Assembly (NCBI GenBank): GCA_018401695.1
Contig: JAGYKD010000002.1
Coordinates: 1 to 64,000, forward strand
Length of the DNA stretch: 64,000 nucleotides
Direction: 5' to 3'
From: Flavobacteriales bacterium
GTDB taxonomy: Bacteria > Bacteroidota > Bacteroidia > CAIKAF01
The translations under genes and the position numbers were made by a program. Positions 19,769-51,325 of this stretch are shown piece by piece; the stretch's first letter is position 1, and each line of letters opens with the position of its first letter. The notes under the pieces are model-generated. The model saw only the letters and a list, made by a program, of their open reading frames with translations, searched no databases and was not told the DNA's origin.

Positions 19769-21463
19769 TTAAGGACAAATCCGCGTTATGCTTATGTATC
19801 CTTGTCCGGCATTATACTGATTTAGGTTCTGAATAGGACCATTCAAGTTGCTGCTGTTGGCATATTGCCCATCCGAACTAGCCACTTGCTGCGCATTGGA
19901 ATCCATATAAGAGCCTCCACCTCCACCAAAACCTGTTCCGCTATTGTTGTTTCCGGAACCTCCTCCGGAATAACCTCCGCCTCCGGCCGAGCCACCCCAG
20001 CCGGCGGCTGCTCCGCCGCCAAAGCCCCCGATCATTTCATTTGTGGCCGTATAACTGCTGTTGTAAATTAATCGTCCACCTCTTCCTCCATTTAAAAAGG
20101 AATAGGCATTTTCCTTAACAAACATGGAACGACCATCCGAAGTTTGTGGTCCGTCAGTCAAAAATCCGGCTCCTCCGGGCCCTTGGTCGGCAAATGGCGC
20201 ACCGTTGCCGCTACAACCACCACCGCCTCCCGTACCCGCTCTTCCGCAAGTGTTCGTGGTGCCATCCATTATGTTTAAATTAAGTTGAGTACCAGACCTG
20301 GAAGAACCGCCGCCGCCGGCAATCATCAATGGCGTATTGTTGGAGCTTACTACAAAGCTTCCACCACCTCCGGAACCGGCACTGGTGCCGTGCTTTCCTT
20401 CCTGACCAACCAACAATTTTAAGGTTTGCCCTTGATTTAAGCTTAGACGACCGCGAAGAATGGCCCCTCGGCCTCCACCCCCATAGCCGGTGCCGTTGTG
20501 GGAACCGGAGGCTCCGGCAACTTCAATTTCATAGGTGCCGGTAGCCGGTACGGCCCATTCTTGGATTCCATTGGTCACATGAACTACGCCGGAACCATAG
20601 GTGGAGTTGCATTGGCTTTGGCTTGGTCCAAACCGTCCAATGGCTCCGCAGGTGGTGAAGTTCCAGGTCTGGGGCTGACAATTGGTTACGGTTGCGGTAT
20701 TGTTGAGCGTATCTACACAATTGTTGTTGTCGGTAACAATTAATTGCACCTGAAACTGTCCTGTATTGCTCCAGGTAACTCCAGGGTTTTGAATGATGGA
20801 GCTTGCCGGTGTTCCATTCTGAAAGGTCCACTGATAGCCGGAAATATTGGGCGTTGTGGCATTAAACGTGGCTTGGTTGTTTACAATAGGACTATTGGGA
20901 GTAACCGTATATGCTGCGGTTGGGTTATTTACCATCACAACAAAGCTTTGAATGGAAGAGGTTCCACAGGCGTTGCTGGCGCTTACGGAAATATTTCGGG
21001 GGCCTGCCTGATTGGAAAAGCTAACCACTATTGAATCGGTGCCGTTTCCGGATACCAAGGTATCTTGGTTGTCGATGGTCCATTGGTAAGATTGGGCACC
21101 CGGAACAGGGGCCACGTAAAAGAGCATTTGAGAAGCACCTAAGCACTGATTGGCTCCTCCTTGAATGTTTCCCGGTTGGGGTGGAGCTTGGCTGCAATCG
21201 CAACGAAGGGTTTTCCATCCCGAAGGAAACCAAGTTTCGACGCACTCGGTGGTAGTATTGTAAATCTGAAGCCCATTTGCAGGGTTTTGAATGGCGTTGC
21301 GCTGCATGGTGCTGAGCCTTGGAAGTAAGAAACCTCCCTGACTACCCGCAACTTCCAAAGTTGCAGAAGGGTCGGGAGGGGTGTTGGCACCAATGGTTAC
21401 GCCTTGGGCAAAGAGCTGGTTTAATCCAAAAAGCAAGGAAGAAAAGAGCAAGAAATACCTCAT
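19769..21463 (-). CDS. Secreted protein with PKD and ALK-like glycine-rich domain
   Basis: This 564-residue protein has a signal peptide (1-19, ...GLNQLFAQ), then an N-terminal segment common on Bacteroidota surface proteins (VTIGANTPPDPSATLEV...GFLLPRLSTMQRNAI...GLQIYNTTTECVETW). Two Ig/PKD-like modules follow (about 95-265), then one glycine-rich domain (about 270-564). That domain opens FTTCGAIGRFGPSQSQCNST and continues with IQEWAVPATGTYEIEVAGASG, LVGQEGKHG, MIAGGGGSS and GGGGYSGGGS, the same order as the ALK/LTK glycine-rich domain (PF12810). It is closest to the fourth domain of the next protein (21774-28607), sharing LTDGPQTSD and FLN-GRGGRL. It has no recognisable T9SS tail, ending GYISITRICP, so it may be secreted or held by partners. 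Function unknown. Confidence 0.88.
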   Translation of the reverse strand: MRYFLLFSSLLFGLNQLFAQGVTIGANTPPDPSATLEVAGSQGGFLLPRLSTMQRNAIQNPANGLQIYNTTTECVETWFPSGWKTLRCDCSQAPPQPGNIQGGANQCLGASQMLFYVAPVPGAQSYQWTIDNQDTLVSGNGTDSIVVSFSNQAGPRNISVSASNACGTSSIQSFVVMVNNPTAAYTVTPNSPIVNNQATFNATTPNISGYQWTFQNGTPASSIIQNPGVTWSNTGQFQVQLIVTDNNNCVDTLNNTATVTNCQPQTWNFTTCGAIGRFGPSQSQCNSTYGSGVVHVTNGIQEWAVPATGTYEIEVAGASGSHNGTGYGGGGRGAILRGRLSLNQGQTLKLLVGQEGKHGTSAGSGGGGSFVVSSNNTPLMIAGGGGSSRSGTQLNLNIMDGTTNTCGRAGTGGGGGCSGNGAPFADQGPGGAGFLTDGPQTSDGRSMFVKENAYSFLNGGRGGRLIYNSSYTATNEMIGGFGGGAAAGWGGSAGGGGYSGGGSGNNNSGTGFGGGGGSYMDSNAQQVASSDGQYANSSNLNGPIQNLNQYNAGQGYISITRICP

Positions 21464-21571
21464 GAGGGATTGGTTTTTTCAAAAATACAGCCAAAAAATA
21501 GGAAAGCCTAAGATTCACATAAAGTTAAAGGTTGACACTTATTGTGAAATTGAAGGGCCTGCGGGCGGGAT

Positions 21572-21718
21572 GCGCCAGGGACCGAACGGATGCCCCGGAT
21601 GCCGCAAAGCCTAGCACGTGCTATTGGAGGCGCGTGGCGCTTTAGCAAACGCCGCCTACAATTTGCACGTGCAGGCTTTGCGGCACCGGAGCAGGAGGGA
21701 GGGCCCGCCCGGGCGCCC
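21572..21718 (+). repeat. Family A palindromic intergenic element, copy A4
   Basis: Starts gcgccagggaccgaacgg and ends gggcccgcccgggcgccc. Arms ggatgccgcaaagcctagcacgtgc and gcacgtgcaggctttgcggcaccgg are complementary at about 22 of 25 positions, around a loop with ggaggcgcgtggcgctttagc. It abuts the terminator of the downstream giant gene. Confidence 0.85.
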
Positions 21719-21750
21719 AAAAAAAAACGCCCCGAAAAGTCGGGGCGTTT
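21719..21750 (-). terminator. Terminator of giant gene 1
   Basis: An 11-bp stem (aaacgccccga / tcggggcgttt), 4-nt loop, with a run of nine T on the minus strand, 24 nt after the stop codon. Confidence 0.93.
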
Positions 21751-21773
21751 CTTATGGGTTTTAAAGGAATCGT

Positions 21774-24700
21774 TTATTGACCTCGTACCACGCGGGCGGT
21801 GTATATTTCTCCATCGATGCTAACGCGGAGTAAATACATGCCTGTGGCCAATCCCAGGTGACCGGTTTCGATGGTTTTGTCGTGGCGTCCTGCACTTAGG
21901 TTGCCCATATCGTACATGGCCAAACGACGTCCGGAGATATCGAGGATTTCGGCTTGTACGTCGGCAGCTTTGTCCAGTTGCATAGACATTACCATAGGAC
22001 CGGTGAATGGGTTGGGGTATACGGAGAGCTCAAGAGCAGCTGCATCGGGTCCTTCAAAGCTAAAGATGTCTTTGGCCTCGATGGTGTCGCAGGTAGTGGA
22101 TAAGCATCCGTTTTTCTCAATGGTAAGGCAAACGATATAATTACCGGCGCTGGTGTAATTCTTAAGCGGGCTTACGTCGTTGCTTGCTGTGCCATCGCCG
22201 AGTGTCCACTGGTAGTTGGCGCCATTTACCGGATTGAAGGGGGTGAATTGCACCGAGTTTACACCGGTGTTGGTACCGTAGAAGCTGGCGTCAGGCGTTT
22301 GACTTACCACCACGTTTTGGGTGTAGGTGTCCGAACAGCCATTGGCGGTGCTTACTTGCAGGGTTACCAAATAGGTACCCGGTTGACTGAAGCTGTAGCT
22401 GGGGGCCTGAAGGGTGTCGGTAGCCTGCCCTGCAAAGTTCCAATTCCAGTCGGTAATATTACCGGTAGATACATCCACCAAATTAAGAGCTTGTTCTGTA
22501 CAACCGTTGGTGCTTAGGAAGTCTGCATTTGGTTTGGCATCTACGGCCACGTTACCATTAAAGGTAGTTGCACAGCCTTCGATACTGGTTACGGTAAGGT
22601 CGTAGTAGTATACGCCCGGAGTTGCATAGGCGTGGTTTACGTTTTGACCAATACCTGTGTTTCCATTGCCAAAGTTCCATTGATAGCCTGCTGCCTGAGC
22701 ACCTGAGGTGTAAGCGTCAAAGCTGATGGGAGTTGGGAAGCAAACCCCAGAGGTAAGTACAGAGTCAACCAAGGGGTTGGCGTGTACCGTAACCTGCTGA
22801 GTTGCAGTATCTGCACAACCTTCCGGGGTGGTTGCAATGAGCTGAACGGTGTATTGTCCGGCATTTGCATAGGTTTCGGAAGTTTGGAATCCGGAACCGG
22901 TGTTACCATTACCGAAGTCCCATTGGAAGGTGCTGATTACTCCACCTTGACCAATGCCGCTGTTTTGGGTAAAGGCCGTAGCCTGTCCCTCACAAACTGT
23001 AGGGGCATTGATTTGGAAAATGGAGGGATTAGGTAGCACGTTCACCTGTACTGGAGCTGTAGCCGCACCACAACCATTGGCATCGGTTCCCATCACTGTG
23101 TAGGAACCTGCGTTGGTGGTGGTATAGTTGGCTTGGTTGGCTCCACTTATTGGGTTGCCGTTGTTCATCCACTGGTAGTTCACCGCACCTGAGGCAGACA
23201 TAGTAACCGGAGTCCCGGCACATGCTTGCTGAATGGTGTTGGGGCTTACGCTTACCTGAGGTAGTGGATTCACCACAATATTTACGGTGTCGGTAGCAGA
23301 GCAGTTGTTGCTGCCGTTCACTTGGTAAATTACTTGAGCAGTGCCCGTTCCTGCCAATTGTGGGTCAAACAGACCTGAATTGGCATTGGCCATGCCGTTT
23401 CCTGACCAAGAACCTCCGGAAGTAGCTGCATTTAGGAGTACCACAGAAGCGTCGGCACAAACTTGCATTGGTGCGTTGGCAATGGTAGCGTCAGGAGAGG
23501 TAACTACAGTTACTACTGAAGAGTCGGTATTGGAACAGTTGTTTTGAGTAACGCTATACACAATGGTGTTGGTACCAATTAGGTTGGCGTTTGGTGTAAA
23601 TGTTCCGTTTGAGGTATTGGTGATGCCATTACCTGACCATGTTCCTCCGGGTGTCGTTGGAGACAAGTTGAAGGGTTGGTCGGCAGAGCAAACCGTTCCG
23701 GGGTTAGCTACAGATGCATCCGGGGTTGGGTTTACCACCACTTGAACAGAATCGGTTACTGTACAACCGGCTACTAAATCTACAATAGTATGGAATACTT
23801 GGTAGGTTCCGGGTGCAACGGCTGTTGGGTCAAAGATGCCTTGGTTGGCATCGATTACACCGTTTCCGGACCAAGTACCTCCGCTATTTAGTGCTGCAAG
23901 CGTATCGGTGCTGCTGTAGTCGCAATAGCTGGCCGGAGGTGTAGTAATGGAGGCGTCAGGGCCTGCAACTACGTTAATGGCCACGGAGTCTTGGAAAGAG
24001 CAACCGTTATTGCTAACCGTATACACCGCATAGTTGGTGCCTATGTTGGCTTGTGCAGCATCAAAGATTCCGTTAATGGAATCTACAATTCCGGGACCCG
24101 CCCAAGTACCGTTGGTATCGGAAGGTTGAGGAATATTGTAATTGATGATTACATAGCCATTGCTGGCATTGAATGAGCCGAGATCGGCTACCGGTCCGTT
24201 GTTAAAGGTAGACAGGTTGTCGTATTGACCGTTGGAGGTAGATACATCGAAGAAAGACGGATCAAAATAAGATCCACCGCCTCCGCCGAAGCCGCTGTTT
24301 GTACCATTGGTTCCGGCACCACCTCCGGAATAGCCGCCGCCACCGGCAGCGCCACCCCATCCGGATGCTGAGCCACCACCAAATCCACCTAATACTAGGT
24401 CGTTGGGCGCGTTTCCGCACGAGTAGAGAAGGCGTCCGCCCCTGCCATCGTTTAAGAAGGAGAAAGCGACTTCTTTGTGGCACATGGCACGAGTATCCGA
24501 AGTTTGTGGTCCGTCGGTCAAGAAGCCTGCTCCGCCCGGTCCTGTGTTGCCGAAGGGAGCTGCGTTACCGCCGCAACCGCCGTTACCGCCTGTACCGTTT
24601 TTACCGCAAGGGCCGGTAGCGGCATCCATTACATTTAGGTTGAGTGTAGCCCCGGACCGAGAAGAACCGCCGCCACCTGCAACTATGAGGGGTGTGTTGT

Positions 24701-27700
24701 TTCCGTCAGCAACAAAGGAGCCGCCTCCTCCGCCGCCGGCAGAGTTGCCATGCTTACCTTGTTGACCTACAAGAATTTTGAGAACGGTACCCGCGGTGAG
24801 TTGAGTTTTGCCTTTCATGATGGCTCCGCGGCCACCGCCGCCGTATCCGCTCCCGTCGTGTGACCCATCGGCACCTGCAACCTCAAACTCGTAAGTGCCG
24901 CTGAAAGGTACAGTCCAGTATTGGATACCGTTTTGTACGGACACCACACCCGGGCCATAGGTATTGTCGGCGTCTCCTTGGCTGGGGCCGAACTGCCCTT
25001 GAGCACCGCAGTTGGTTAAGGTAATGCTACCCTGCAACACGGGAGGGACAAAACCAAGATTTAACGGTGTTGATCCTTGGCAATAATTGCCTTGCACGGG
25101 AGAAAGGATGGCGGTAGGTATGGGGAATGCATTTACCTGAGCGGTGTCGTATTTAGAAGGACAACCGTTCACTGTGTAGTTTACGTAGTAAGTCTGCGGA
25201 GCATTTAATGGAGGAGTAGTCCAGTTTTGTCCAGCATTGGCAATGGTTCCCCCAATGGTGTCGTACCAAGTATACACTCCTTGTGGTCCGGTTACGCTAA
25301 GCGGCGCAGCCCCGGTTCCACAAAAGGTGGTATCGCCACTGGCAACAGGTGCCTGTAGTGAGTCGAGCCAAATAGGAGCAGGAACTCTAGGACTTTGGCA
25401 AGATTTAGTAATGGAATAAGAAATATTGATTTGTCCATTTCCATTTCTGGTACCTTGGGTATGCGTGGTGTTGGCAGCACGGTTGGCATCGGCATAGCTG
25501 GAACCACCGCCACCGCCACCGCCGAAGCTGCTGGATCCTCCACCGCCACCGTAGTAGCCACCGCCGCCGCCACCGGAGTAGCCGCAGTCGTAGGAGTCTC
25601 CACCAACGCCAAGGGTGCCGTCAAATCCGGCTGCGCCGCAAGTACCTCGTTGTCCACCGGCAGTTTGGCTTCCTCCTTTGCCGGAGTAGCAATCGGCATA
25701 GCTGTTGCAACGGGAACCGGCAAGAGCAGTAAGTCCTCCGCCGTCGCCTCCATGGTTTCCGGAAGAGCAATCGTATCCGGCACCACCGCCGCCACCGGCG
25801 ACTACAACGCGGTCGTTGAGGGCAGTACCTCCGGAGCGGATATCTGAAGCACCACCACCACCTTGTCCGCGGACGCTGTAGCATCCTCGTGTGGCAGATC
25901 CACCTCCATTCCAACCGCCTTGGGCGCTGCTGTTTTGTCCACCAACGTAAAGGTTAAGTACTTCTCCGGGGGTGACGTTAAGGGTAGTTTGCACTCTACC
26001 GCCAAGTCCCGGGTTACCGTAAATACCGCCCCCTTGAGCGCCATACATATCCACTTGGATTTGCGTAACGTCTGCGGGTACGGTCCAAGTTTGTGGACTT
26101 CCGGTATAATTGAAGGTATGGTTTCCGGAAATGGTAATGGAAGACCTTGTTTGAACAAAGAAAGTATCGCTTCCATTTACGGGAGGTAGTGAAATTTGAG
26201 GGCCGGTAGCCACCAAGTTGCCTCCTGAGTTGGCATCGTACCATTCGATGGGAGAGCTAACGCCAGTAGCGGTTAATGTTACCGGTGTACCACAAGTTAC
26301 GCTGTCGCCTTGGGTAATTGGAGCAGAAAGTGGTGCAACGTTAATTGGAACCGGAATTCTTGTACTGGAGCAGTAGTTTTTCACGTAAGAAATAATAACC
26401 TGACCATGACCTGATCGATCTCCCTGAGCATGGGTTACGTTGGATGCTAGGTTTGGATCGGCATAGCTAGATCCTCCTCCGCCACCGCCATAGTAGTAGC
26501 CACCGCCACCACCATACCAGCCGCCACCGCCGCCACCGGCGGCTTGTCCGCAGCAACCGGATTGAGCGGCATTGCCGCCTTGTCCAGAAGATCCGGCTTG
26601 AGCGCCCCCATTTGTGGCACCGCTTCCGCCGGAGTTTTGTTGACCACCCTGACCAACATAGGAGGTACTATTGCCGTTGCAATACCAGCCGGATTGTGCC
26701 GTACCTGAACCGCCACCGGCACCACCACGCTCGGCGTTTCCGTTGCAATTCCAACCGGCACCGCCACCGCCACCGGCAACCACTACCCGGTTGTTAAGGC
26801 TAGTGCCTCCTACTCGAAGGTCAGAGGCTCCGCCACCACTACCGCCGCTTTGGTAAAAGGTGTAACGGTTTCCTCCACCATTCCAGCCACCGGTGTTGCC
26901 GGTGGGTTGTTGGCCAACATAAATTCTAATGAGTTGTCCTGGAGTTACGGCCAAAGAACCGGTAACTCGTCCCCCAAGTCCGCCTTGATTGGAGGAATTG
27001 GAGCCACCTTGAGCGCCAGCAACGTCAAAATCAATGGCATAAACGCCGGAAGGAACGGTCCAGTTTTGAACACCGCCTGTATAATTAAAAGTTACAGAGC
27101 CCGATGGATTGGGATCCGTTATGGCTTCCAAATAAATGGTGTCGGAAGCAGTAATAAAGTTTTGGGTTACGGAATTGTTGGTTCCTAAACTATTTCCTGC
27201 GGTGGGGGCATCAAACCACTCAAAGAATCCGGTAGAACCGGAAGCCGTAGCGGTTAGGGTGTCTCCACAAAGTCCTGAAACTGCTTGGGCCGAAGGGTTA
27301 CTTACTGGACCTGCCTGGTAAGTAACAGGAATTCTTGCACTAACACAGAATGGGGAAGTGTAGGAAATGTTTACGGTTCCATGCCCAGTGCGCACGCCTT
27401 GGTTGTGGGTAATGTTTGTAGCTGCTTGAGGATCAGCATAAGAAGATCCGCCGCCGCCGCCGCCGTAAGATCCGCCGCCGCCGCCGTAGTATCCACCGCC
27501 GCCACCGCCGCCGCGGTAAGAGCCCATGCCACCATTGGCAAGAGTACCGCTGTTGGGACAGCACCAGTTTGTACCTGCTGCTCCACCGGAGTTTTGGCTT
27601 CCACCACGACCGGTGTACGAAGTATTGTTGGTGCTGCTGCAGTAGTACCCTGCTTCCCCGGTGAGTCCTCCGCCTGCGCCGCCGCGTGAACCATCGGTTC

Positions 27701-28607
27701 CGCAGTTCCAACCGCCGCCGCCGCCGCCGCCGGCAACAATAACTCGGTTGTTAGTACCGGTTCCTCCAATGCGAATATCTGAAGCGCCACCACCGCCTTG
27801 GGCATAGGTGCTTGATGCATTGGTAGATGCACCGCCATTGTAGCCCCCTCCTGTGGAAGTGTTTGGCCAGCCACCTACACGTATATAAATGGTTTGCCCC
27901 GGAGTAACGGCTAGGTCGGCCAATACTTGTCCGCCAAAACCACCACGGTTTCCGTAATTGGTGTTGTTGCCTCCTTGGGCACCTTGAACATCGACAGAAA
28001 TACTAAATATCCCTGCAGGAACGGTCCAGGTTTGCTGACCTCCTGTATAATTAAAAGTAACCGTTTGGTTCGGGTTCAAGTTGTCCGTGGCCTCCAAATA
28101 ATAGGTGGTGGTTTGGGTCAATTGAACGTTAAGGCTACTTCCTTGGAAAATTGGGGATCCTCCGGTTGGCTGGCTGTACCAATTAAACGAGCCGGAAGAG
28201 CCAGAGGCAAGAAGTGTACCTTGGGTGCCGCACATTACAGAGTCGCCAATAGTAATGGGACTAGGTAGTGGATTGCTTTGCACAATGGCAGCCGCCCTTG
28301 GACTAACGCAGTTTGGGTTCGACAGGTTGTCAACCGCTTCTACGTAATAGGTTTGATTGGAGTACAGGGCAGGTGTGGTGTATGAAGCACCTGTGCCTAA
28401 CAATGCACCGCCAGTTGGTTGGTTGTACCACCGAAAAATTCCGGTGGATCCGTTGGCTGTTAAGGTAGCTCCCTGTCCGCAAGTTGCAGAAGAGCTTACC
28501 ACATTTGGAATAGGACATTGTGCCGAAAGTGATGGCACACCGCCCAAACTGCAGAAAGCCGCCCCAAAAAAAAGAACAGCCCCTGCTCGTCGTAGCAATT
28601 TAATCAT
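21774..28607 (-). CDS. Giant glycine-rich T9SS surface protein, paralog 1
   Basis: This 2277-residue secreted protein starts at the ATG at 28607 (MIKLLRRAGAVLF...SLSAQ). The frame runs open to a TTG/ATG-less extension at 28688, but that would coincide with the promoter. Order: signal peptide (1-31), two Ig-like modules (to 180), glycine-rich domains 1-3 (about 183-415, 505-738, 828-1065) alternating with Ig-like modules, and an ALK/LTK-like glycine-rich domain 4 (about 1193-1491: LTNCGAQGQFGPSQ, YWTVPFSGTYEFEVAGADG). Then come five GxWxGxG repeats (about 1498-1778), an Ig module, four PKD domains (about 1860-2185, WDFGNGNT) and a T9SS type-A tail (LSVYPNPF...TARVVRGQ). Cysteine pairs occur inside the glycine-rich domains. 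It is presumably anchored on the cell surface. Role unknown: adhesion or matrix is a guess. Confidence 0.9.
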   Translation of the reverse strand: MIKLLRRAGAVLFFGAAFCSLGGVPSLSAQCPIPNVVSSSATCGQGATLTANGSTGIFRWYNQPTGGALLGTGASYTTPALYSNQTYYVEAVDNLSNPNCVSPRAAAIVQSNPLPSPITIGDSVMCGTQGTLLASGSSGSFNWYSQPTGGSPIFQGSSLNVQLTQTTTYYLEATDNLNPNQTVTFNYTGGQQTWTVPAGIFSISVDVQGAQGGNNTNYGNRGGFGGQVLADLAVTPGQTIYIRVGGWPNTSTGGGYNGGASTNASSTYAQGGGGASDIRIGGTGTNNRVIVAGGGGGGGWNCGTDGSRGGAGGGLTGEAGYYCSSTNNTSYTGRGGSQNSGGAAGTNWCCPNSGTLANGGMGSYRGGGGGGGYYGGGGGSYGGGGGGSSYADPQAATNITHNQGVRTGHGTVNISYTSPFCVSARIPVTYQAGPVSNPSAQAVSGLCGDTLTATASGSTGFFEWFDAPTAGNSLGTNNSVTQNFITASDTIYLEAITDPNPSGSVTFNYTGGVQNWTVPSGVYAIDFDVAGAQGGSNSSNQGGLGGRVTGSLAVTPGQLIRIYVGQQPTGNTGGWNGGGNRYTFYQSGGSGGGASDLRVGGTSLNNRVVVAGGGGGAGWNCNGNAERGGAGGGSGTAQSGWYCNGNSTSYVGQGGQQNSGGSGATNGGAQAGSSGQGGNAAQSGCCGQAAGGGGGGWYGGGGGYYYGGGGGGSSYADPNLASNVTHAQGDRSGHGQVIISYVKNYCSSTRIPVPINVAPLSAPITQGDSVTCGTPVTLTATGVSSPIEWYDANSGGNLVATGPQISLPPVNGSDTFFVQTRSSITISGNHTFNYTGSPQTWTVPADVTQIQVDMYGAQGGGIYGNPGLGGRVQTTLNVTPGEVLNLYVGGQNSSAQGGWNGGGSATRGCYSVRGQGGGGASDIRSGGTALNDRVVVAGGGGGAGYDCSSGNHGGDGGGLTALAGSRCNSYADCYSGKGGSQTAGGQRGTCGAAGFDGTLGVGGDSYDCGYSGGGGGGYYGGGGGSSSFGGGGGGGSSYADANRAANTTHTQGTRNGNGQINISYSITKSCQSPRVPAPIWLDSLQAPVASGDTTFCGTGAAPLSVTGPQGVYTWYDTIGGTIANAGQNWTTPPLNAPQTYYVNYTVNGCPSKYDTAQVNAFPIPTAILSPVQGNYCQGSTPLNLGFVPPVLQGSITLTNCGAQGQFGPSQGDADNTYGPGVVSVQNGIQYWTVPFSGTYEFEVAGADGSHDGSGYGGGGRGAIMKGKTQLTAGTVLKILVGQQGKHGNSAGGGGGGSFVADGNNTPLIVAGGGGSSRSGATLNLNVMDAATGPCGKNGTGGNGGCGGNAAPFGNTGPGGAGFLTDGPQTSDTRAMCHKEVAFSFLNDGRGGRLLYSCGNAPNDLVLGGFGGGSASGWGGAAGGGGYSGGGAGTNGTNSGFGGGGGSYFDPSFFDVSTSNGQYDNLSTFNNGPVADLGSFNASNGYVIINYNIPQPSDTNGTWAGPGIVDSINGIFDAAQANIGTNYAVYTVSNNGCSFQDSVAINVVAGPDASITTPPASYCDYSSTDTLAALNSGGTWSGNGVIDANQGIFDPTAVAPGTYQVFHTIVDLVAGCTVTDSVQVVVNPTPDASVANPGTVCSADQPFNLSPTTPGGTWSGNGITNTSNGTFTPNANLIGTNTIVYSVTQNNCSNTDSSVVTVVTSPDATIANAPMQVCADASVVLLNAATSGGSWSGNGMANANSGLFDPQLAGTGTAQVIYQVNGSNNCSATDTVNIVVNPLPQVSVSPNTIQQACAGTPVTMSASGAVNYQWMNNGNPISGANQANYTTTNAGSYTVMGTDANGCGAATAPVQVNVLPNPSIFQINAPTVCEGQATAFTQNSGIGQGGVISTFQWDFGNGNTGSGFQTSETYANAGQYTVQLIATTPEGCADTATQQVTVHANPLVDSVLTSGVCFPTPISFDAYTSGAQAAGYQWNFGNGNTGIGQNVNHAYATPGVYYYDLTVTSIEGCATTFNGNVAVDAKPNADFLSTNGCTEQALNLVDVSTGNITDWNWNFAGQATDTLQAPSYSFSQPGTYLVTLQVSTANGCSDTYTQNVVVSQTPDASFYGTNTGVNSVQFTPFNPVNGANYQWTLGDGTASNDVSPLKNYTSAGNYIVCLTIEKNGCLSTTCDTIEAKDIFSFEGPDAAALELSVYPNPFTGPMVMSMQLDKAADVQAEILDISGRRLAMYDMGNLSAGRHDKTIETGHLGLATGMYLLRVSIDGEIYTARVVRGQ

Positions 28608-39600: not shown

Positions 39601-42600
39601 CTGGCTGGTTCCGGGGTACGGTGCCTCCGGAAGCGCCAAATGCCTCAATGGTATAGATGCCTGTAAAGGGTACTACCCATTCCTGGATTCCGCCGTTTAC
39701 CAGAATTGTGCCTGAACCATAGGTGTTATCGGCATCTTGTTGGGTTGGGCCATTTGCTCCTGTGGCTCCACAATTAGTCAAAACAATAGAGTCAGAGAGT
39801 AAGCTAGGTGCAAACCCTAAGTCTAAGGGAGCATTCCCGGAACAAAGATTGGTACTGGCTAAGGCACCTAAGTTTATCTCAGGGAATGGGGTTGCAAGCA
39901 CTTGTACCGTATCGTATTTTGAAGGACAACCATTCACGGTATAGTTTACGTAATATGTAATGGGGTTGCTAAGGGTAGGTGTAGTCCAGTTTTGACCTAC
40001 GTTGGCAATGTTCCCTCCAAGGGTATCGTACCACACGTAGTTACCTTGAGGACCAGTAACGGATAAGCTAGCTGAACCAGAGCCACAGAAAGTGGTATCT
40101 CCGCTTGCCACAGGAGCTTGCAGTGAGTCGAGCCAAACCTCTGCGGGAACTCTTGGACTGGCGCAGACCAAGTTCACGTTATAAGATATGGAGATTTGTC
40201 CGTTTCCGCTTTGGAATCCTTGGGTATGGGTAGTTGCTGTGGTAAGGTTTGGATCGGCGAAGTTTGATCCGCCGCCGCCACCGCCGCCATGCCAGCAGCA
40301 AGCACCACGTCCGCCGCCGCCACCGTAGTAGCCGCCACCACCGCCGCCACCGAAGTAGGAAGTGTTGTAGTAGTAAGCGTTACCTCCTTGGCCAAGGGCA
40401 CCCGGCGAAGCTTGAGGTGAACCGGCACCACCTGCGGTTTGTGATCCACCAGAGCCTACGTAGGTTGTATTGGGGCTATTGGCATTGAGTCCTGGAGCGC
40501 CGGTAAGTCCACCGCCGTCGCCTCCGTTGTACCCCGAGGAGCTGGATTGTCTTCCTGCGCCACCGCCACCGCCGGCCACTACCACGCGGTCAGCGAGCGC
40601 GGTTCCGTTGAGTCGAACGTCTGAAGCGCCACCACCACCGCGGGTTTCAGTGGTAGAAGAACTGAGTCCACCACCACCGTTCCAACCGCCGGTATTGGAT
40701 ACGGATTGTTCGCCGACATATACATGGAGCACATCTCCGGGGGTAACGTTTAGGCTGGTTTGTACCCTTCCTCCAAGACCACCTTGGTTCCAGGAGTTGG
40801 TTCCCCCTTGGGCCCCGCTGGCGTCGATTTGAATCTGAGAGACTCCGGCAGGTACGGTCCAGGTTTGAGGACTACCTGTGAAGTTGAAGGTTTGACTTCC
40901 GGAAAGGGTAATGGAAGTTTCGGTACCTACAAAAAAGGTATCGGAAGCAAGGACTGGGGGTAAGCTGAGTTGAGGTCCAAAGGCTAGGATGTTTCCTCCG
41001 GTAGGTGCATCGTACCAAGCAATGGGGGTTGTTGATCCGGAAGCAGTAAGGGTTACGGGAGTTCCGCAAGTAGCGCTATCGCCTTGTGTAATGGGTGCAG
41101 AAAGAGGAGTAACGCTAATTGGGACAGGAATTCGGCTGCTGGAGCAGTATGCTTTTACAAACGAAATGGTGACTTGTCCGTGTCCGCTGCGGTCTCCTTG
41201 TGTATGGGATATGTTGGAAGCTAGGTTAGGGTCAGCCCAAGAGGAGCCACCACCGCCGGAGCCGCCGTCGTATCCGCCACCGCCGCCATAGTATCCACCG
41301 CCACCGCCACCGGGGTCGCTGCAGCAAGAGGTAGATGCATTACCGCCGTTTCCAAAGCTTCCGCTTTGCGAGTTTGAGCATGTGGCTCCAAGTCCACCGG
41401 CATTTTGTGAGCCGCCTGAGCCGGAGAAGCAGGTAGATGTGCTACCGCATCTTCTACCGCCTTCTGCAGTTCCGTTACCACCGCCGGCACCACCGGGTTC
41501 GCTGTTTGTTCCGCAAGCATAGCCTGCGCCACCGCCAGCACCGGCAGCCACTACTCGATCGGCAAGGCTGGTACCACCGATTCGGATGTCGGAGCCACCG
41601 CCACCGCCGCGACCCCAAGTATCCCAACCGTTGCCCCCGCCATTCCAACCACCGGTTTGGCTGGTGGGTTGTTGTCCTACATAGATGCGCAGGAGCTGTC
41701 CGGGAGTTACGGCAAGGTCACCGGTAATGCGTCCGCCGTTGCCCCCTTGGCTCCATTGGTTGGAACCTCCCTGGGCCCCGGCCACGTCAAAGGAGACGGA
41801 GAAAACGCCCGCGGGTACGGTCCAGTTTTGGACACCACCGGTATAGTTGAAAGTAAGTGTGCCGCTGGGGTTTGGATCTGTAATGGCTTCTACATAGAAG
41901 GTATCGGAGTTAGTAACAAAGTTTTGAGTAAGGTTGGCGTTGATGCCAAGGCTATTTCCTGCGGTGGGTGCATCGAACCACTCAAAGAAACCGGTAGAAC
42001 CGGTAGCGGATAGCTGAATGGTATCTCCACAGTTCGCATTTATGGCTTGTGCGGAGGGGTTAGAAACAGGGCCTGCTTGATAGGTTACAGGAATACGTGC
42101 ACTGAGACAAAAAGGAGAGGTGTAGGTAATAGAAACAGTACCATGTCCTGTGCGAACGCCTTGGTTGTGTGTCACATTGGTTGCGACTTGTGGGTCTGTA
42201 TAGGAAGAGCCGCCGCCGCCGCCGCCGTAGGAAGAGCCGCCGCCGCCATAATAGCCGCCGCCGCCGCCGCCGCCACGGTATCCGCCACCGCCACCATTGG
42301 CCAGGGAGCCATTGGAAGGACAGCACCAGTTAGACCCTGCGTTTCCGCCGGAGTTTTGGCTTCCGCCGCGCCCTGTCCAAGTAGTATTGTTTGTGCTGTT
42401 GCAATAGTACCCTGCCTCACCGGTGAGCCCTCCACCGTCTCCACCACGGGAGCCGTCGGTTCCGCAGTTCCAGCCGCCGCCACCGCCGCCACCGGCAACG
42501 ATAACCCGGTTGTTGGTGCCAGTTCCGCCTAAACGAATGTCGGAGGCGCCGCCGCCCCCTTGCCCAAAAGAGCTGGAAACATTTGAGTTAGCCCCACCAT

Positions 42601-43369: not shown

Positions 43370-43870
43370 AGCTTAATATTTAGGGTGGCTGAAACTTAAT
43401 TAACTGGACTAAAGTTAAGTTAAATATTTTGATAGTTTTCACCTGAAATCGTGAAAATAATATGTTTTATCATGTATTGAGTTCTTAAATGCCTGTAAAA
43501 CAAGCTTAAAGATTCTTCAATATTCTAATGCCTTTTTAGGCTTATATTTTTGTTTGTGATATAAAACCTTATGAAAAGAAAGTGCTAGGATTGAAATTGC
43601 GCATTTAAAGTTTAACTTTTTAAATGCTGAAATGTGTTTTAGTTCACAAGTTTTTCGTTTCATTTGCAGCTTTAGGTGCATGGGTTCTTTTGTTCTTTGT
43701 CCCATGCCGAATAACGAAGGTTGCTGCGTAGCTATTCTGGGGCAATAGTTGCACCCTGACGCATTGTTTAAGCACTTTGTCTGGAAAACACAACGTGTCA
43801 AGGGGGCTGGTATGGGTAAGGAAAGAAAAGAAAAGGGTGTTTTATCCTATCCATATTTTTTGAAGATACA
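43370..43870. other. Upstream region of giant gene 3 with a decayed family B end
   Basis: AT-rich to about 43690, with no gene recognised. At 43784-43804 a gaaaacacaacgtgtcaaggg stretch matches the end of family B elements, so a truncated or decayed copy may span about 43700-43804. The minus-strand frames here (43517-43801, 43798-44067) are repeat artefacts. Confidence 0.5.
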
Positions 43871-44023
43871 GGCGCAGGGACCGCACCGATACCCCGGATG
43901 TGGCCCTTGCCCCGCGGCTTAAAGGAAAAGAGCGATCCCGATACTTCGGAAAGCTCCTTTTCTTTTTTAGCAAGCGGGAGCAAGAGCCGCAACGGAGTAT
44001 AGGAAAGGGCCCGGTTGCGCCCC
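43871..44023 (+). repeat. Family A palindromic intergenic element, copy A6
   Basis: The first 28 nt (from ggcgcagggaccgcaccg) equal those of A1. Arms ggcccttgccccgcggctt...ggaaaagagc and gctccttttctt...gcaagagcc pair. It ends gggcccggttgcgcccc. Confidence 0.85.
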
Positions 44024-44093
44024 AACTCCAGTTTTGAGGCGGGAAACGGGAAGCTATTTTGGTGCATCTATTGTGCCTTGCCCCATGCCTTAA

Positions 44094-44339
44094 GAGACTG
44101 TTGACGCGCTCCTATTCTGGCGGCGATCCTGTCCTGACCGCAGCATCAGGGTTTACCTTACGCCCCAATCTCAAGTATTTTATCCTGACTCAAAGGTGCT
44201 GACCACAGCGTCAGCACGCAGCATCAGGGGTCCTCATTTACAAATAGTAAACTCCGGCCTGTCCTGACGCTTCGGTCAGGAACTAGGTCCCTGACGCCTT
44301 AGGGGTATAAACTTGAAAACACAACGCGTCAACGGTCTC
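44094..44339 (-). repeat. Family B element, expanded copy B3
   Basis: Ends gagactgttgacgcg and acaacgcgtcaacggtctc are the family's terminal inverted repeats. At 246 bp it is longer than B2 because several short ctgacgc...gcggtcag hairpin modules are inserted. It shares the tttacaaatagtaaa and tcgccgcc parts with B1/B2. Confidence 0.8.
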
Positions 44340-44401
44340 CTTAAGGTGGTATTCCTTTTCCAGACGCTTCGGTCAGGATTCAAGAACCTGACGCATCGGT
44401 C
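44131..44401. repeat. Cluster of short ctgacgc hairpin modules
   Basis: Repeated 17-20-bp inverted repeats of the form cctgac-gcttcg-gtcagg occur at about 44136, 44192, 44262, 44361 and 44387, some within B3 and some beyond it. The same module recurs at 51857, 51931 and 52018. Confidence 0.7.
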
Positions 44402-44506
44402 GGTATTAAAGCGTACCGCCGCTAAGGTCAGAACCCCTTTATTGGCCGTGCATTTTGTCCAAGGTTTCTAGCAGTTATGGTCTGGCAAAAGTCTCAATTT
44501 TGGCCA

Positions 44507-44537
44507 TAAAAAAAGCCGCCCTTTTGGGGCGGCTTTC
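44507..44537 (-). terminator. Terminator of giant gene 4
   Basis: A 10-bp stem (aaagccgccc / gggcggcttt), 5-nt loop, T run on the minus strand, 18 nt after the stop codon. Confidence 0.92.
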
Positions 44538-44554
44538 TAAAAGTTTGGATTTAA

Positions 44555-47500
44555 TTAATCGATGAGGTGAACAATACGTGTAGTATACCATTGTTCTCCA
44601 ACCTTTACGCTGAGCAGGTAGGTACCGCTGCTAAGTCCCCAAGATTTGGTGTCAATGGTCCAAGTTTGCAAACCTGCACCTTGAGCCGCCAGTGTCTGGC
44701 TGGCTGCAGTTCTTCCCCGTAAATCTTGAAGCAACAAGGTGGCCTCTTGATTGGTTGGAAGGTTCAAGCTCAACCTGAAGCTTTCTCCAAAGGGGTTGGG
44801 GTACACTTGCAAACCAATGGCGTTGCCGTCTTGACCATCTAAACCAAAGACATCTTTGGCATATATGGTGTCGCAAACGGTACTTTCGCAACCATTTTTG
44901 GTGGTGGTTAAGCAGACCTGGTAGAAACCGGTATTGCTGTATTGCTTCAAGGGTGAAATGGCATTGGAAGATGTTCCATCGCCAAATGTCCACAGGTGAT
45001 TCGCTCCTGTCAAAGGATTGAAAGGCGTGAATTGTACCTGGTTCACCCCTTGATTGGTTTCGTACCAAGTTGCGTCAGGGGTTTGGCTGACTGGGACTTG
45101 GCTTGTATGTACATCCGTACAGCCTTGTGGGGTGGTTACCGTTAAGGTTACGGTGTAATTACCGGGGGTGTTGTAGCTATAGCTTGGGTTCTGTTGGTTG
45201 TCTACAGCAGGTCCAAAGTCCCAATTCCATCCGCTAATGTTGCCGTTAGAAAGGTCAAAGAATTGCAAAGGCTGACCTGTGCAACCGGGGGCAAATAAGT
45301 AGTTTGCCTCGGGCTTGTTGTCAACCACTACATTGCCATTGAAGGTGCTTTGACATCCTAGATTGGAGGTGGCGGTAATGGTGTAGTAGAATGTGCCTGC
45401 TGAAGGGTATTGGTGAATCACGGATTGACCATTTCCGGTGTTTCCATTGCCAAAGTTCCATTGATAGGTCTGAACACTTGCCCCTGAGGTGAATGCCTGG
45501 AAGTTGGCCGGATTAGGGAAGCAAGCTCCTGTAGTGAGAACAGAGTCAACGTTGGGTCTTGGGTGTACCGTTACCAATTGAGTGGCAGTATCTGCGCAAC
45601 CTTCGGGTGTGGTGGCAATAAGCTGAGCGGTGTATTGACCGGAAGAGCTATACGTCTCATTGGTTTGGAAGCCTGAGCCGGTATTACCGTTGCCAAAATC
45701 CCACTGATAGGTGCTAATGACTCCGCCTTGCCCAACACCGCTATTTTGGGTAAAGTTGGTGGCTTGTCCTTCGCAAACAGCAGGTGCGTTTATTTGGAAA
45801 ATTACCGGGTTAGGAAGGATGTTAACTTGTACCGATGGAGAATTTGCCGAACAACCGTTGCCATCAATGCCCATAACCGTGTAAGCTCCGGCATTTAGGG
45901 TGGTTAAGTTGGCTTGGGTGGCTCCGCTAATTGGGTTTCCATTATTCATCCATTGGTAATTCACCGCTCCTGTTGCAGAAATGGTTACTGGAGTTCCTGC
46001 ACACGCTTGTTGAATAGTGTTGGGACTCACCGTAATTTGAGGCAATGGATTCACTACCACAAATGCGGTATCGGATGCCGAGCAGTTGTTGGTGGCTGAA
46101 ATCGTATAGACAATTTGAGCAGTTCCGGTACCTGCCAACTGCGGGCTGAACAAGCCTGAATTTGGGTTAGCCATGCCGTTGCCTGTCCAAGAGCCCCCTG
46201 CTGTTGCTGCGCTCAGCAGTAGAGGGGATGCATTGGCACAAACTTGCATAGGAGCATTGGCTATGCTAGCGTTAGGTGAAGTCAACACGGTTACTACCAG
46301 AGAGTCGGTATTTGAACAGTTGTTCTGCGTTACACTATATACAATGGTATTGCTACCAACAAGGTTAGCATTGGGGCTAAATGTTCCGTTGGAAGTGTTG
46401 GTAATGCCACTACCAGACCAAGTACCACCTGGGGTTACCGAAGACAAATTGAAAGGCTGGTCAGCCGAACAAACAGTTCCGGGACTTACCACAGAGGCGT
46501 TTGGTGTTGGGTTAACCACAATTTGTAAGGAATCGGTAACGGAGCATCCTGCTTGTTGATCTACCAAGGTATGGAATACCTGGTAGGTACCCGGAGCTAC
46601 CGAGGTTGGGTCAAAGATGCCTTGGTTGGGGTCTGCAATTCCGTTACCGGACCATATGCCACCAGAGTTTAGTGCTGCGAGCGTATCCGAGTTGCTGTAA
46701 TCGCAATAGCTTGGGGGAGCTGTTGTAATTGAAGCATCCGGTCCTGCCACTACATTTATGGCAATGGAGTCTTGGAATGTGCAACCGTTATTGCTCACGG
46801 TATAGACTGCGTAGTTTGTGCCAATATTGGCTTGATTGGCATTAAAAATACCATTGATGCTGTCTACAATACCAGGGCCGGACCAAATACCAAAAGTATC
46901 CGAGGGCTGGGGTATGTTGTAGGTAATGGTTACAAATCCATTGCCTGGATTGACCCCGGAAGTAGCCACTGTATTGGTTCCCGCATTAAAGGAGCCACCA
47001 CCGCCGCCGCCGGCAACGTTTCCATCTCCGCCGCCGCCGGACCATCCGCCACCTGCAGAGGCACGGTGTCCTACACCGGCTCCTCCACCGAAGCCACCTT
47101 CTACACCGCCGCGTCCAACGTCGGCAACACCGCCTAAGCCACCGGAAAGGAAGCTCTCGCCGGCAATGTTTGGTGCACCACCGTTACAATTTTCTCCGCC
47201 TTTGGTGTAGAAACCACCGCCACCTGCACCAAAGGAGCAGGAGTTTCCGTTTCCTCCCGGAGCGTTCTGGGTTCCTGCAGTACCGTTTTGGGCAGCGCCA
47301 CCGCCGCCGCCATTGATACCGCCCTGACCCGAACTAGAAGGAGAGTTTGTTCCATTTAGGCCAATATCGCCAGGCAAGCCTGTACCACCGCTTCCTGCAC
47401 CGCCGCCGCCGCCGGCAACGATAAGAGGCGTATTGTTGCCATCAACAACAAATGTGCCACCACCACCAGCGCCGGCAGAGTTGGATCCGCTGGGTGGTCT

Positions 47501-50500
47501 GCTGCCTCCCCGTTGGCCTACCAAAGCGCGTAGGGTAGTGCCTGCGGTTAATTGGAAATCACCTTCCAAAACAGCGCCAAGTCCTCCCTGGTTTCCGCCT
47601 CCGTCTCCACCTTGGGCTCCTGCTACGGTAATTCTATAAGTTCCTGTGAAAGGTACTGTCCATTCTTGAATTCCGGCATTTACTGTAACTACACCTGGCC
47701 CATAAGCGGTGTTAGCCTGCTGTTGGGTAGGGCCGGAGCGACCTGTTGCGCCACAATTGGTAAGGTTAAGCGTGCCTTGAAGCACGGGTGGAACAAAGCC
47801 CAGGTCTAAAGGTAAAGAGCCTTGACAGTAGGTTCCGGTGACCGCCGCTAAGTTGGCCACGGGGAAAGGAGTTGCTTGCACCCTAACCGTGTCGTATTTA
47901 GAAGGACAACCGTTCACCGTATAGTTTACAAAGTAAGTCTGTGGAGCCATTAAAGGAGGGGTTGTCCAGTTTTGTCCAATGTTGGCAATGGTTCCTCCAA
48001 TAGTGTCATACCAAGTATACGCTCCTTGTGGACCGGTTACGCTAAGCGGCGCAGAGCCTGTTCCACAGAAACTGGTGTCTCCAGAAGCAGTAGGTGCTGG
48101 AAGCGAATCCAACCAAATGGGAGCTGGAACTCTTGGGCTTGAACAGCTTAAGTTTATGTTGTAGGAAATAACAATTTGACCATTTCCTGATTGAAACCCT
48201 TGGGTATGGGTTGTATTGCTGGTTCTGATGGCATCGGCGAAAGAGGAGCCGCCACCACCGCCAGCGTAGCGACCACCGCCGCCACCAAATTGGCCGCCGC
48301 CGCCGCCGCCGCCGGAGCTGCCGCAAGTACCGCCGGTACCGCCTTGTCCTGCTGTTCCTGCCGTGGCACAGCCACCGCAAGTAGCGCCTTGACCACCGGA
48401 AGTTGGAGTAGCTCCGCTGCCTGTGTTGCAATCTTGGTTGTTGCAGTTAAACCCTTGCTGGGCCTGACCGGAACCGCCGCCGTTGCCGCCGCTCATACCT
48501 GAAGAGCAGTTCCAGCCGCTTCCGCCACCGCCGCCGGCAGTAACCACACGGTTGGATAATCCTGTTCCACCACTACGTATGTCGGATCCACCGCCGCCGC
48601 CGGCGCCGCTGGAGTTTCCGTTTCCGCCACCATTCCAGCCGCCTGTATTTGAGCTGGTGGTGCCTCCCACGTGTAGGGTAAGTGTTTCACCCGGTGTTAC
48701 GGTTAAACTTGTTTGGACTCTTCCACCTAAGCCGCCAGGGTTGTTACCCGGGCTGGGTAGAGAAGCTCCACCTTGTGCACCGCGGATATCTACTTGGACT
48801 TGAGTAACCCCATTTGGTACAGTCCAGGTTTGAGGAGCGCCTGTAAAGTTAAAGGTGTGGTTTCCGGAAATATTGTTGATTAATGAAACGCCGGCAAATA
48901 AGGTGTCTGAACCTAATACGGGTGGGAGCGAAACTTGGCTTCCCGTAGCTAGTAAGTTGCCTCCTGTTGGCGCATCGTACCAATTGACAGGATATGTAGT
49001 TCCTGTGGCTGTAAGGGTAACAGGAGTACCGCAGGTTACGCTATCGCCTTGGGTAACCGGAGCACTAATGGGCGATACGGTCATAATTGCGGGGATGCGT
49101 TGGCTTGAGCAGAAATTTCGGGTATAGCTAATGGTGGCTGTTCCATTGCCGGTATGCACGCCTTGATTGTGGTTTATGTTGCTGGCCAAATTTGGATTGG
49201 CGAAGCTGGATCCGCCGCCGCCGCCGCCGTACCAACCGCCGCCGCCGCCGTAGTAACCACCACCGCCGCCGCCGGCATAGGAGCTTCCGTTTCCTCCTTG
49301 AGCTAGTTGTCCGGATTGTCCTCCGTTGTTTGCACCGGTGCCACCGTTGTTTTGAGTTCCTCCTTGACCAACATAGGTGGTTGATTGCCCATTACACCGG
49401 AAGCCGGCTCCTGCAGTTCCTGATCCACCTCCGGCACCACCGCCGTTGGTAAAGGAGCCGCAGTCGTAGCCGGATCCACCACCGCCTCCGGCAATGAGTA
49501 CCCGGTTGTTTGTGCTGGTACCTCCAATTCTAATATCGGTTGCACCACCGCCACCACGGCCAAAAATGCTGCCAAAGCCGCCGCCATTCCAGCCCGGGCT
49601 TGTCGTGTTGTTGGGCTGACCGCCTACATAAATAAATATGGTTTGTCCTGGAGTAACGGCAAGGTCGGCCGTTACCTGGCCTCCCAATCCGCCGGCTCCA
49701 TAACTGGGGTTTGTTCCACCTTGTGCACCATAGAGGTCTACCGTAATGGTGAATACTCCGGCAGGAACGGTCCATTGTTGGGTTCCACCGGTATAGTTAA
49801 AGTTGAAGGAACCAAATGGGTTGGGGTCGGTTACCGCTTCTACATAGAAGGTATCGGAAGTAGTCACAAATTGCCGTGTCAATTGGGCGTTGGTGCTGAT
49901 GGGATTTCCTCCGGTTGGGGTATCGAACCAGCGGAAGAAACCTGTAGAGCCGGTGGCAGAAAGGTTGAGTGTATCGCCACAGGCACCACTTGCATTTACT
50001 GTAGAAGGGTTGGATATTGGGTTTACAATTACAGGCACAGGGATGCGTGCGCTATTACAAAAAGGAGTTACAAAAGTAATATTGACTACCCCATGTCCGG
50101 TGCGCACACCTTGGTTATGCGTTACGTTGGAGGCCAAAACAGGGTCGCTGTAGGATGAGCCGCCGCCTGCGCCGCCGTAAGATGAACCGCCGCCACCATA
50201 GTAGCCGCCGCCGCCGCCTGCGCCTCTGTAACCACCGCTGCCGCCGTTTCCTAAGCTTCCACTGGATGGGCAACACCAGTTCGTACCTGCCGCACCACCG
50301 CTGTTTTGGCTTCCACCTCTTCCAGTGTAGGAGGTGTTGCCTGTGCTGCTGCAATAATAACCGGCTTCACCGTTAAGTCCGCCGCCGTCACCGCCGCGCG
50401 AACCGTCGGTACCACAGTTCCAGCCGCCGCCTCCGCCGCCGCCGGCAACGATTACGCGGTTGGCTAATCCGGTGCCACCAATACGTAGGTCAGTGGCTCC

Positions 50501-51325
50501 ACCGCCACCTTGGCCATAAAGACTGGAAACATTGGAGTTGGCTCCGCCATTGTAACCACCGGTGGTGGAAGTGTTGGGCCATCCACCTACTCGGATGTAA
50601 ACGATTTGTCCCGGGGTAACAGCGAGGTCTGCCAAAACCTGCCCACCGAAACCGCCTCGGTTGCCATAACTTGTATTGTTGCCGCCTTGGGCGCCCTGCA
50701 CGTCTACCGAGATGGAAAATACACCGGCGGGTACCGTCCAGGTCTGTTGTCCACCATTATAATTGAAAGTGGCTGTTTGTACAGGGTTAAGGTTAGTGGT
50801 AGCCTGAACATAAAACAATGCATTTTGGCTCGTAAAGGGAGGGTTGAACGAGCTTCCTGTTCCAATGGGTTGCCCACCGCTTGGCGCAGCAAACCACTGA
50901 AATTGCCCGCTAGAACCGCTGGCAAAAAGCGTAGCGGGACTGCCACAGTTGATGGTGTCGCCTATGGCTATAGGTACAGGTATGTTGTTTACCGTAACCA
51001 ATACCGCAGCCCTTGGGCTAATGCATGAAGGGTTGGAGAGGGTGTTTACCGCTTCAACATAATATGTGGATTGGGCAAACAAGCTTGGTGTAGAAAAGCT
51101 TGGCCCTGTTCCCAGCAGGTTACCTCCGGTAGGGGCATCATACCATCTAAAAATTCCGGTAGAGCCGGAAGCGGTAAGGGTAGCTCCTTGTCCACAGGTA
51201 GCCGAAGAACTAGTGACCCCTGGAATGGGACACTGCGCATGTACTTGCCAGGTTAGGGCAAGTAAACAAAGAGCTGTCGTCCATAATCGGCCGAAAGCCC
51301 CGGTTTTAGTACCGTTTGTCTTCAT
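44555..51325 (-). CDS. Giant glycine-rich T9SS surface protein, paralog 4
   Basis: This 2256-residue protein has the same architecture: signal peptide (1-30, ...WQVHAQ), Ig-like modules, and glycine-rich domains 1-3 (nt about 50775-50070, 49810-49120, 48865-48165). The ALK-like domain 4 (about 47775-46915) opens LTNCGATGRSGPTQQQANTAYG with IQEWTVPFTGTYRITVAGAQGG, perhaps the closest of the five to animal ALK. Then come GxWxGxG repeats, an Ig module, PKD domains (WDFGNGNTG) and a tail LQVYPNPFGESFRLSLNLPT...TRIVHLID. It is more diverged from paralogs 2 and 3 than they are from each other, and shows no long identical DNA block with them. The terminal LID extension after the usual TRIV is unusual. 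Function unknown. Confidence 0.9.
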   Translation of the reverse strand: MKTNGTKTGAFGRLWTTALCLLALTWQVHAQCPIPGVTSSSATCGQGATLTASGSTGIFRWYDAPTGGNLLGTGPSFSTPSLFAQSTYYVEAVNTLSNPSCISPRAAVLVTVNNIPVPIAIGDTINCGSPATLFASGSSGQFQWFAAPSGGQPIGTGSSFNPPFTSQNALFYVQATTNLNPVQTATFNYNGGQQTWTVPAGVFSISVDVQGAQGGNNTSYGNRGGFGGQVLADLAVTPGQIVYIRVGGWPNTSTTGGYNGGANSNVSSLYGQGGGGATDLRIGGTGLANRVIVAGGGGGGGWNCGTDGSRGGDGGGLNGEAGYYCSSTGNTSYTGRGGSQNSGGAAGTNWCCPSSGSLGNGGSGGYRGAGGGGGYYGGGGSSYGGAGGGSSYSDPVLASNVTHNQGVRTGHGVVNITFVTPFCNSARIPVPVIVNPISNPSTVNASGACGDTLNLSATGSTGFFRWFDTPTGGNPISTNAQLTRQFVTTSDTFYVEAVTDPNPFGSFNFNYTGGTQQWTVPAGVFTITVDLYGAQGGTNPSYGAGGLGGQVTADLAVTPGQTIFIYVGGQPNNTTSPGWNGGGFGSIFGRGGGGATDIRIGGTSTNNRVLIAGGGGGSGYDCGSFTNGGGAGGGSGTAGAGFRCNGQSTTYVGQGGTQNNGGTGANNGGQSGQLAQGGNGSSYAGGGGGGYYGGGGGWYGGGGGGSSFANPNLASNINHNQGVHTGNGTATISYTRNFCSSQRIPAIMTVSPISAPVTQGDSVTCGTPVTLTATGTTYPVNWYDAPTGGNLLATGSQVSLPPVLGSDTLFAGVSLINNISGNHTFNFTGAPQTWTVPNGVTQVQVDIRGAQGGASLPSPGNNPGGLGGRVQTSLTVTPGETLTLHVGGTTSSNTGGWNGGGNGNSSGAGGGGGSDIRSGGTGLSNRVVTAGGGGGSGWNCSSGMSGGNGGGSGQAQQGFNCNNQDCNTGSGATPTSGGQGATCGGCATAGTAGQGGTGGTCGSSGGGGGGGQFGGGGGRYAGGGGGSSFADAIRTSNTTHTQGFQSGNGQIVISYNINLSCSSPRVPAPIWLDSLPAPTASGDTSFCGTGSAPLSVTGPQGAYTWYDTIGGTIANIGQNWTTPPLMAPQTYFVNYTVNGCPSKYDTVRVQATPFPVANLAAVTGTYCQGSLPLDLGFVPPVLQGTLNLTNCGATGRSGPTQQQANTAYGPGVVTVNAGIQEWTVPFTGTYRITVAGAQGGDGGGNQGGLGAVLEGDFQLTAGTTLRALVGQRGGSRPPSGSNSAGAGGGGTFVVDGNNTPLIVAGGGGGAGSGGTGLPGDIGLNGTNSPSSSGQGGINGGGGGAAQNGTAGTQNAPGGNGNSCSFGAGGGGFYTKGGENCNGGAPNIAGESFLSGGLGGVADVGRGGVEGGFGGGAGVGHRASAGGGWSGGGGDGNVAGGGGGGSFNAGTNTVATSGVNPGNGFVTITYNIPQPSDTFGIWSGPGIVDSINGIFNANQANIGTNYAVYTVSNNGCTFQDSIAINVVAGPDASITTAPPSYCDYSNSDTLAALNSGGIWSGNGIADPNQGIFDPTSVAPGTYQVFHTLVDQQAGCSVTDSLQIVVNPTPNASVVSPGTVCSADQPFNLSSVTPGGTWSGSGITNTSNGTFSPNANLVGSNTIVYSVTQNNCSNTDSLVVTVLTSPNASIANAPMQVCANASPLLLSAATAGGSWTGNGMANPNSGLFSPQLAGTGTAQIVYTISATNNCSASDTAFVVVNPLPQITVSPNTIQQACAGTPVTISATGAVNYQWMNNGNPISGATQANLTTLNAGAYTVMGIDGNGCSANSPSVQVNILPNPVIFQINAPAVCEGQATNFTQNSGVGQGGVISTYQWDFGNGNTGSGFQTNETYSSSGQYTAQLIATTPEGCADTATQLVTVHPRPNVDSVLTTGACFPNPANFQAFTSGASVQTYQWNFGNGNTGNGQSVIHQYPSAGTFYYTITATSNLGCQSTFNGNVVVDNKPEANYLFAPGCTGQPLQFFDLSNGNISGWNWDFGPAVDNQQNPSYSYNTPGNYTVTLTVTTPQGCTDVHTSQVPVSQTPDATWYETNQGVNQVQFTPFNPLTGANHLWTFGDGTSSNAISPLKQYSNTGFYQVCLTTTKNGCESTVCDTIYAKDVFGLDGQDGNAIGLQVYPNPFGESFRLSLNLPTNQEATLLLQDLRGRTAASQTLAAQGAGLQTWTIDTKSWGLSSGTYLLSVKVGEQWYTTRIVHLID

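Follow-up and report, generated by a model that had tools for sequence, protein, structure and literature searches.

The window considered here is a stretch of 64,000 nucleotides from a Flavobacteriales bacterium (Bacteroidota; assembly GCA_018401695.1, contig JAGYKD010000002.1, positions 1-64,000, forward strand). Its minus strand carries five open frames, specifying a secreted protein of 564 amino acids, P1, and four giant proteins, P2 to P5, each of about 2,250 amino acids, and all five include a domain that resembles the part with which the animal receptors ALK and LTK bind their ligands. P1 (19769..21463) carries two PKD-like domains (Pfam scan) and the ALK-type domain at its C-terminus, and its N-terminal region shows, as read from the sequence, a signal-peptide-like start followed by the motif PRLSTMQRNAIQNPANGLQIYN. 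P2 (21774..28688) has TTG as its listed start, and the real start may be internal to the frame. P3 (29071..35760) and P5 (44555..51325) share the architecture of P2, and P4 (36611..43369) is mostly near-identical to P3 in its N-terminal half. In scans with Pfam and with TIGR04183, the model of the C-terminal sorting domain of the type IX secretion system (T9SS), the giants consist of Ig_7 repeats, PF12810 glycine-rich domains, PKD domains and a T9SS sorting domain, with four glycine-rich domains (G1 to G4) placed in series amid the Ig_7 and PKD repeats. The Pfam scans of P1 to P5 revealed no tyrosine kinase domain, and these proteins are thus not receptor tyrosine kinases of the ALK family.

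All-against-all BLAST comparison separated the glycine-rich domains into two types, one comprising G1, G2 and G3 of the giants and the other G4 of the giants together with the domain of P1. The distinctness of the fourth domain, which an earlier note on this DNA had pointed out, is therefore borne out by BLAST type, and it is also seen in sequence and predicted fold. Members of the second, ALK type are found in P1 (19772..20677), P2 (24129..25031; 63% identity to the P1 domain), P3 (31423..32175), P4 (38960..39793; strongly diverged from G4 of P3) and P5 (46910..47776), all on the minus strand, and they carry an additional N-terminal segment, CG.xGxxGPxQ...Y, that is missing from domains of the other type such as G2 of P2 (26379..27098, minus strand). 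A five-way alignment of the ALK-type domains showed this segment to be followed by the common motifs GIQxWxVPxxG, GAxG, LVGQxG, F....N.P..AGGG and GGG.SGG. The ordered set of ALK-like features described in the earlier note could be recovered in this way, except that CGA is CGK in P3 and that the closing GHGxVxI has a literal GHG in only two of the five domains, the others having GQG, SNG and GNG. The opening TTCGAIGRFGPSQSQCN, whose likeness to ALK the earlier note had remarked on, is present, and a search of PDB sequences aligns it with TTCGASGPHGPTQAQCN of human ALK.

The relationship to ALK is evident even from single sequences. Searched alone against all PDB chains with phmmer, the P1 domain matched human ALK (3e-13) and LTK (1e-12), the ALK match running along some 93 residues among which glycine is scarce (bias 1.7 bits). 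A profile built from only the five window domains gave ALK at 2.5e-24, LTK at 6e-23 and SCD-2 of Caenorhabditis elegans at 1e-16, with the ALK match covering positions 3-269 of 272, and a profile made from 29 ALK-type domains of prokaryotes (alignment A2, containing no animal sequence) matched ALK at 1.1e-39, most of the score stemming from the TNF-like part. In the latter, the first 98 positions, which are low in glycine and correspond to the TNF-like part, contributed 93.5 bits (2e-25) with a bias of 1.4 bits. Where columns are at least 80% conserved among the 29 prokaryotic domains, ALK agrees in 61 of 75, and in 21 of 23 if glycine columns are set aside, in an alignment fitted to the prokaryotic profile. 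None of 2,000 composition-preserving shuffles of P1 matched ALK. Domains of the other type behave differently: G2 of P2 alone found no match in the PDB, a G1-G3-type profile reached 7e-11 at best, and when the ALK fragment was used as query its N-terminal part was matched by 28 of the 29 ALK-type rows and by none of the G1-G3 type. It is well supported, then, that the homology of the five domains with ALK and LTK spans the full TG module, which these receptors use for ligand binding, in both its TNF-like and its glycine-rich part. The earlier note had compared them with the glycine-rich domain only; that likeness holds in sequence and predicted fold, with the helix register in keeping, and the match extends over the TNF-like part to the whole module.

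Structure prediction, which had been proposed as a check, gave an ALK-like fold. The AlphaFold2 model of the P1 domain (pLDDT 86.5, pTM 0.89) had ALK, LTK or SCD-2 structures as its top 21 Foldseek matches, the best at 3e-15, and superposed on human ALK with a Z of 33.2 and 2.4 Å over 258 residues (VIA-align). The ALK structures were released by the PDB in late 2021, and we take them to postdate the training data of the AlphaFold2 weights used. A TNF-like beta-sandwich with an inserted glycine-rich part is well supported as the predicted fold of the P1 domain. The G2-type model (P2) is similar but more distant, with a Z of 13.6 to ALK. Besides ALK, LTK and SCD-2, the only standout fold matches come from two phages, the cyanophage Pam3 with its tail fibre gp24 and Bxb1 with its tail tip. 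For each of the 14 polyglycine helix segments tabulated for ALK (PMC13243192) the alignment of the window domains shows a counterpart, with glycine making up 52-65% of the ALK-helix columns in the five domains and 12-21% of the other core columns, under an ALK numbering in which the first Trp of the fragment was taken as residue 683, as inferred from chain ranges. This register supports the shared fold, less so than the superposition does, because alignment to a hidden Markov model favours placing glycine on glycine.

The Pfam family PF12810 (ALK_LTK_GRD; gathering cut-off 24.5 bits), against which a search of each domain had been suggested, gave a mixed outcome. As whole proteins P1 to P5 all score above the cut-off, but among the ALK-type domains this is true of P1 (37.8 bits, whole protein) and G4 of P2 (43.6 bits), and not of G4 of P3 (18.5 bits) or P5 (15.7 bits), while G4 of P4 gave no match. 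The model begins downstream of the CGAxGxxGPxQ segment, and the G2-type domain of P2 scores 90.8 bits against 54.9 bits for human ALK. Since the model starts after this segment and most ALK-type domains on their own lie below the cut-off, PF12810 is a poor test of ALK-likeness, and domains of the G1-G3 type score higher though they are farther from ALK.

The giants are equipped for export, with TIGR04183 scores of 33.7, 26.9, 32.3 and 29.5 bits for P2 to P5 (cut-off 23 bits) in a genome that encodes SprA (2329 bits) and has 78 TIGR04183 matches. The statement that the domains sit on T9SS-exported proteins is thus upheld for the four giants and not for P1. The same genome (2.99 Mb) has 32 matches to PF12810 and 41 to the window profile, and each of five further members of the genus yields 13-35 profile matches, dropping to three in the one genome from another genus of the family and to none in the other sampled genomes of the order; across the phylum, 10 of 296 genomes match. 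Paralogue sets in the genus comprise 13-40 members per genome. Both the giants and the P1-type single-domain proteins recur throughout the genus with unchanged architecture. Genes of the latter kind also occur in tandem arrays (L089 and L090 in this genome), which are retained in the sister species (L087, L088). Between species the ALK-type family is under strong purifying selection, as ten orthologue pairs with the sister genome gave dN/dS values of 0.04-0.07 in the glycine core and in the flanks just as in the TNF-like part. A different pattern is seen between the paralogues P3 and P4, which are 97-100% identical over long stretches flanking G4 but only 20-60% identical within it, so that, the C-terminus aside, their divergence is greatest in the ALK-type domain. 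It is likely that this reflects either exchange of the G4 cassette or conversion of the flanks.

A search for related loci detected ALK-type domains in Bacteroidota, Myxococcota, Verrucomicrobiota, Gracilibacteria (genetic code 25), Nanohaloarchaeota and Woesearchaeota, mostly in metagenome-assembled genomes, of which individual cases may be binning errors. Among the DPANN archaea they were seen in two assemblies of Nanohaloarchaeota (L007, L038) and one of Woesearchaeota (L004), one of the contigs being about 1.03 Mb in length. In a tree of the domains, two Nanohaloarchaeota sequences group with one from Myxococcota (98/99), and Gracilibacteria with one labelled as a proteobacterium (100/97), pairings that suggest lateral spread.

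Relatives are also encoded by 176 candidate stretches in IMG/VR, where the domain mostly lies at the C-terminus of the protein and several contigs carry two or three such genes consecutively. P1 matches two phage protein families, PHROG 22713 (5e-23) and 7388 (1e-15), and the viral ALK-type proteins that were scanned match both as well. At L124, the sole viral locus checked, neighbouring genes match families of head-tail adaptor, head closure and tail sheath stabilizer proteins, and it is likely that the viral ALK-type proteins are phage tail fibres. The three ALK-type proteins of this locus (L124:3088-9761) are encoded upstream of those genes, and a small open reading frame between two of them might specify a fibre chaperone. 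The motif PRLSTxQRNAxxNPxxGLxIYN, near the N-terminus, is common to the P1 family and several viral ALK-type proteins (e.g., L147+3301 and L124+3088). A profile of this motif from 18 sequences of the P1 family matched 10 of 838 viral open reading frames, mostly of ALK type (best 9.3e-6; some contigs are near-duplicates), and the P1 N-terminus as a single sequence found no match among them. Searches with the P1 domain by tblastn gave no match in cultured phages or plasmids. A role in anti-phage defence was also considered and set aside, P1 and P2 having no PADLOC match.

What, then, could such a domain be doing on the surface of a bacterium? Because the standout folds outside the ALK family are those of phage tips and fibres, the viral domains are mostly C-terminal, and L124 lies in a tail gene context, the ALK-type domain is probably a binding-tip module, or adhesin, of surface proteins, homologous to the ALK TG domain. 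A rigid base would be provided by the TNF-like part together with the glycine bundle, and the loops that differ among paralogues may contact a target, be it a polysaccharide, a particle or another cell. By way of T9SS the giants would display the module among their Ig_7 and PKD repeats on the cell surface, and the P1-type proteins would be small secreted versions. The many paralogues, each kept between species, could then provide the genus with a set of differing specificities. Several observations weigh against this. The dN/dS of about 0.05 in the glycine core is not the fast evolution of a tip engaged in a recognition arms race, and hypervariable, fast-evolving tips were not seen between species in the ten orthologue pairs. 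P1 lacks a T9SS sorting domain in the TIGR04183 scan, which bears on the final location of the P1-type proteins, and two loops of its model (residues 63-66 and 273-286) are weakly predicted.

The same constraint between species would suit a structural role, in which the glycine-helix bundles serve as stiff spacers or as building blocks of a cell-surface matrix with no specific ligand, and the serial arrangement of four glycine-rich domains among the Ig_7 and PKD repeats of each giant also fits this. Such a role is possible but rather unlikely, as a single ALK-type domain closes the P1-type proteins, and most of the viral relatives likewise, and P3 and P4, apart from their C-termini, differ most in precisely this domain between near-identical flanks. 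An ice- or cold-related surface activity might be considered by comparison with the snow-flea antifreeze protein, a polyglycine-II protein whose glycine-rich helix bundle is similar in kind and which has been listed alongside ALK and S16 gp38 (PMC13243192), but the standout fold matches are with ALK and phage fibres, in their TNF-like plus glycine modules, and we regard such an activity as very unlikely. That the ALK likeness is an effect of composition is extremely improbable: both sequences are glycine-rich and such regions do raise scores, but the low-glycine N-terminal match with its small bias, the failure of the shuffles, the agreement in non-glycine columns and the superposition of the model led to its rejection. 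It is hardly credible that a host-associated bacterium uses these domains to mimic ALK or to receive animal cytokines of the ALKAL type. The closeness to ALK in Foldseek and in Z would accord with this, but the family also occurs in archaea and viral contigs, and the ligand contacts of ALK are not conserved in the window domains. We take these contacts to be E859, Y966, E974 and E978; the only exception is D at 859 in one domain, and ALKAL-like ligands would for this reason not be expected for the bacterial domains.

That Pfam groups bacterial sequences with ALK was already known, as was a comparison of a phage fibre with ALK. What is new is a subfamily of bacteria, archaea and viruses that matches human ALK over the entire TG module, that has expanded in one genus both on T9SS giants and on small secreted proteins, and that is linked to PHROG 22713 and 7388. 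A literature search turned up no description of bacterial ALK-type domains, although this does not prove that none exists. To our knowledge, the origin of the unusual extracellular fold of ALK is still an open question, and bacteria, DPANN archaea and viral contigs, all with close relatives over the full length of the module, now offer a set of sequences with which it can be tested. These relatives suggest that the module had earlier served as a binding tip at surfaces, and place the ligand-binding part of a human receptor kinase in a widespread family of microbial surface modules. It could tentatively be speculated that the ALK/LTK ectodomain descends from a bacterial or phage receptor-binding module acquired by an early animal lineage, with the window domains as living relatives. 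When ALK was placed within the prokaryotic tree it joined the ALK-type side through a long branch of 2.03, with most deep forks open, and no ancestry or direction of transfer is claimed. On the practical side, a probable fold can now be assigned to two PHROG families, and PF12810 in its present form is seen to miss several of the most ALK-like domains.

Among known systems, the TG domain of ALK and LTK (7NWZ, 7LRZ, 7NX1, 7N00) is like the window domains in whole-length homology, strand order and the order of the glycine-rich segments. It differs in an insert of about 30 residues after LVGQQG that the window domains lack, and in its opening, CGAxGxxGPxQxxCN, of which P1 has both cysteines while the second is Ala in all four giants; the kinase and EGF-like parts of the receptors are also not found in P1 to P5. 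SCD-2 of C. elegans (7LIR) has the same fold, but with a Z of 22.4 the P1 model lies nearer to human ALK than to this protein. PHROG 22713 and 7388 are phage families of unknown function. The Pam3 tail fibre gp24 (7YPX/7YFW), a trimeric phage fibre with its own chaperone, matches the P1 model less well than ALK does (Z of 6.7-7.9 with the ALK-type model; 10.1-10.6 with that of the G2 type), and its TNF-like plus glycine-rich module sits at the receptor-binding tip (PMC9608196).

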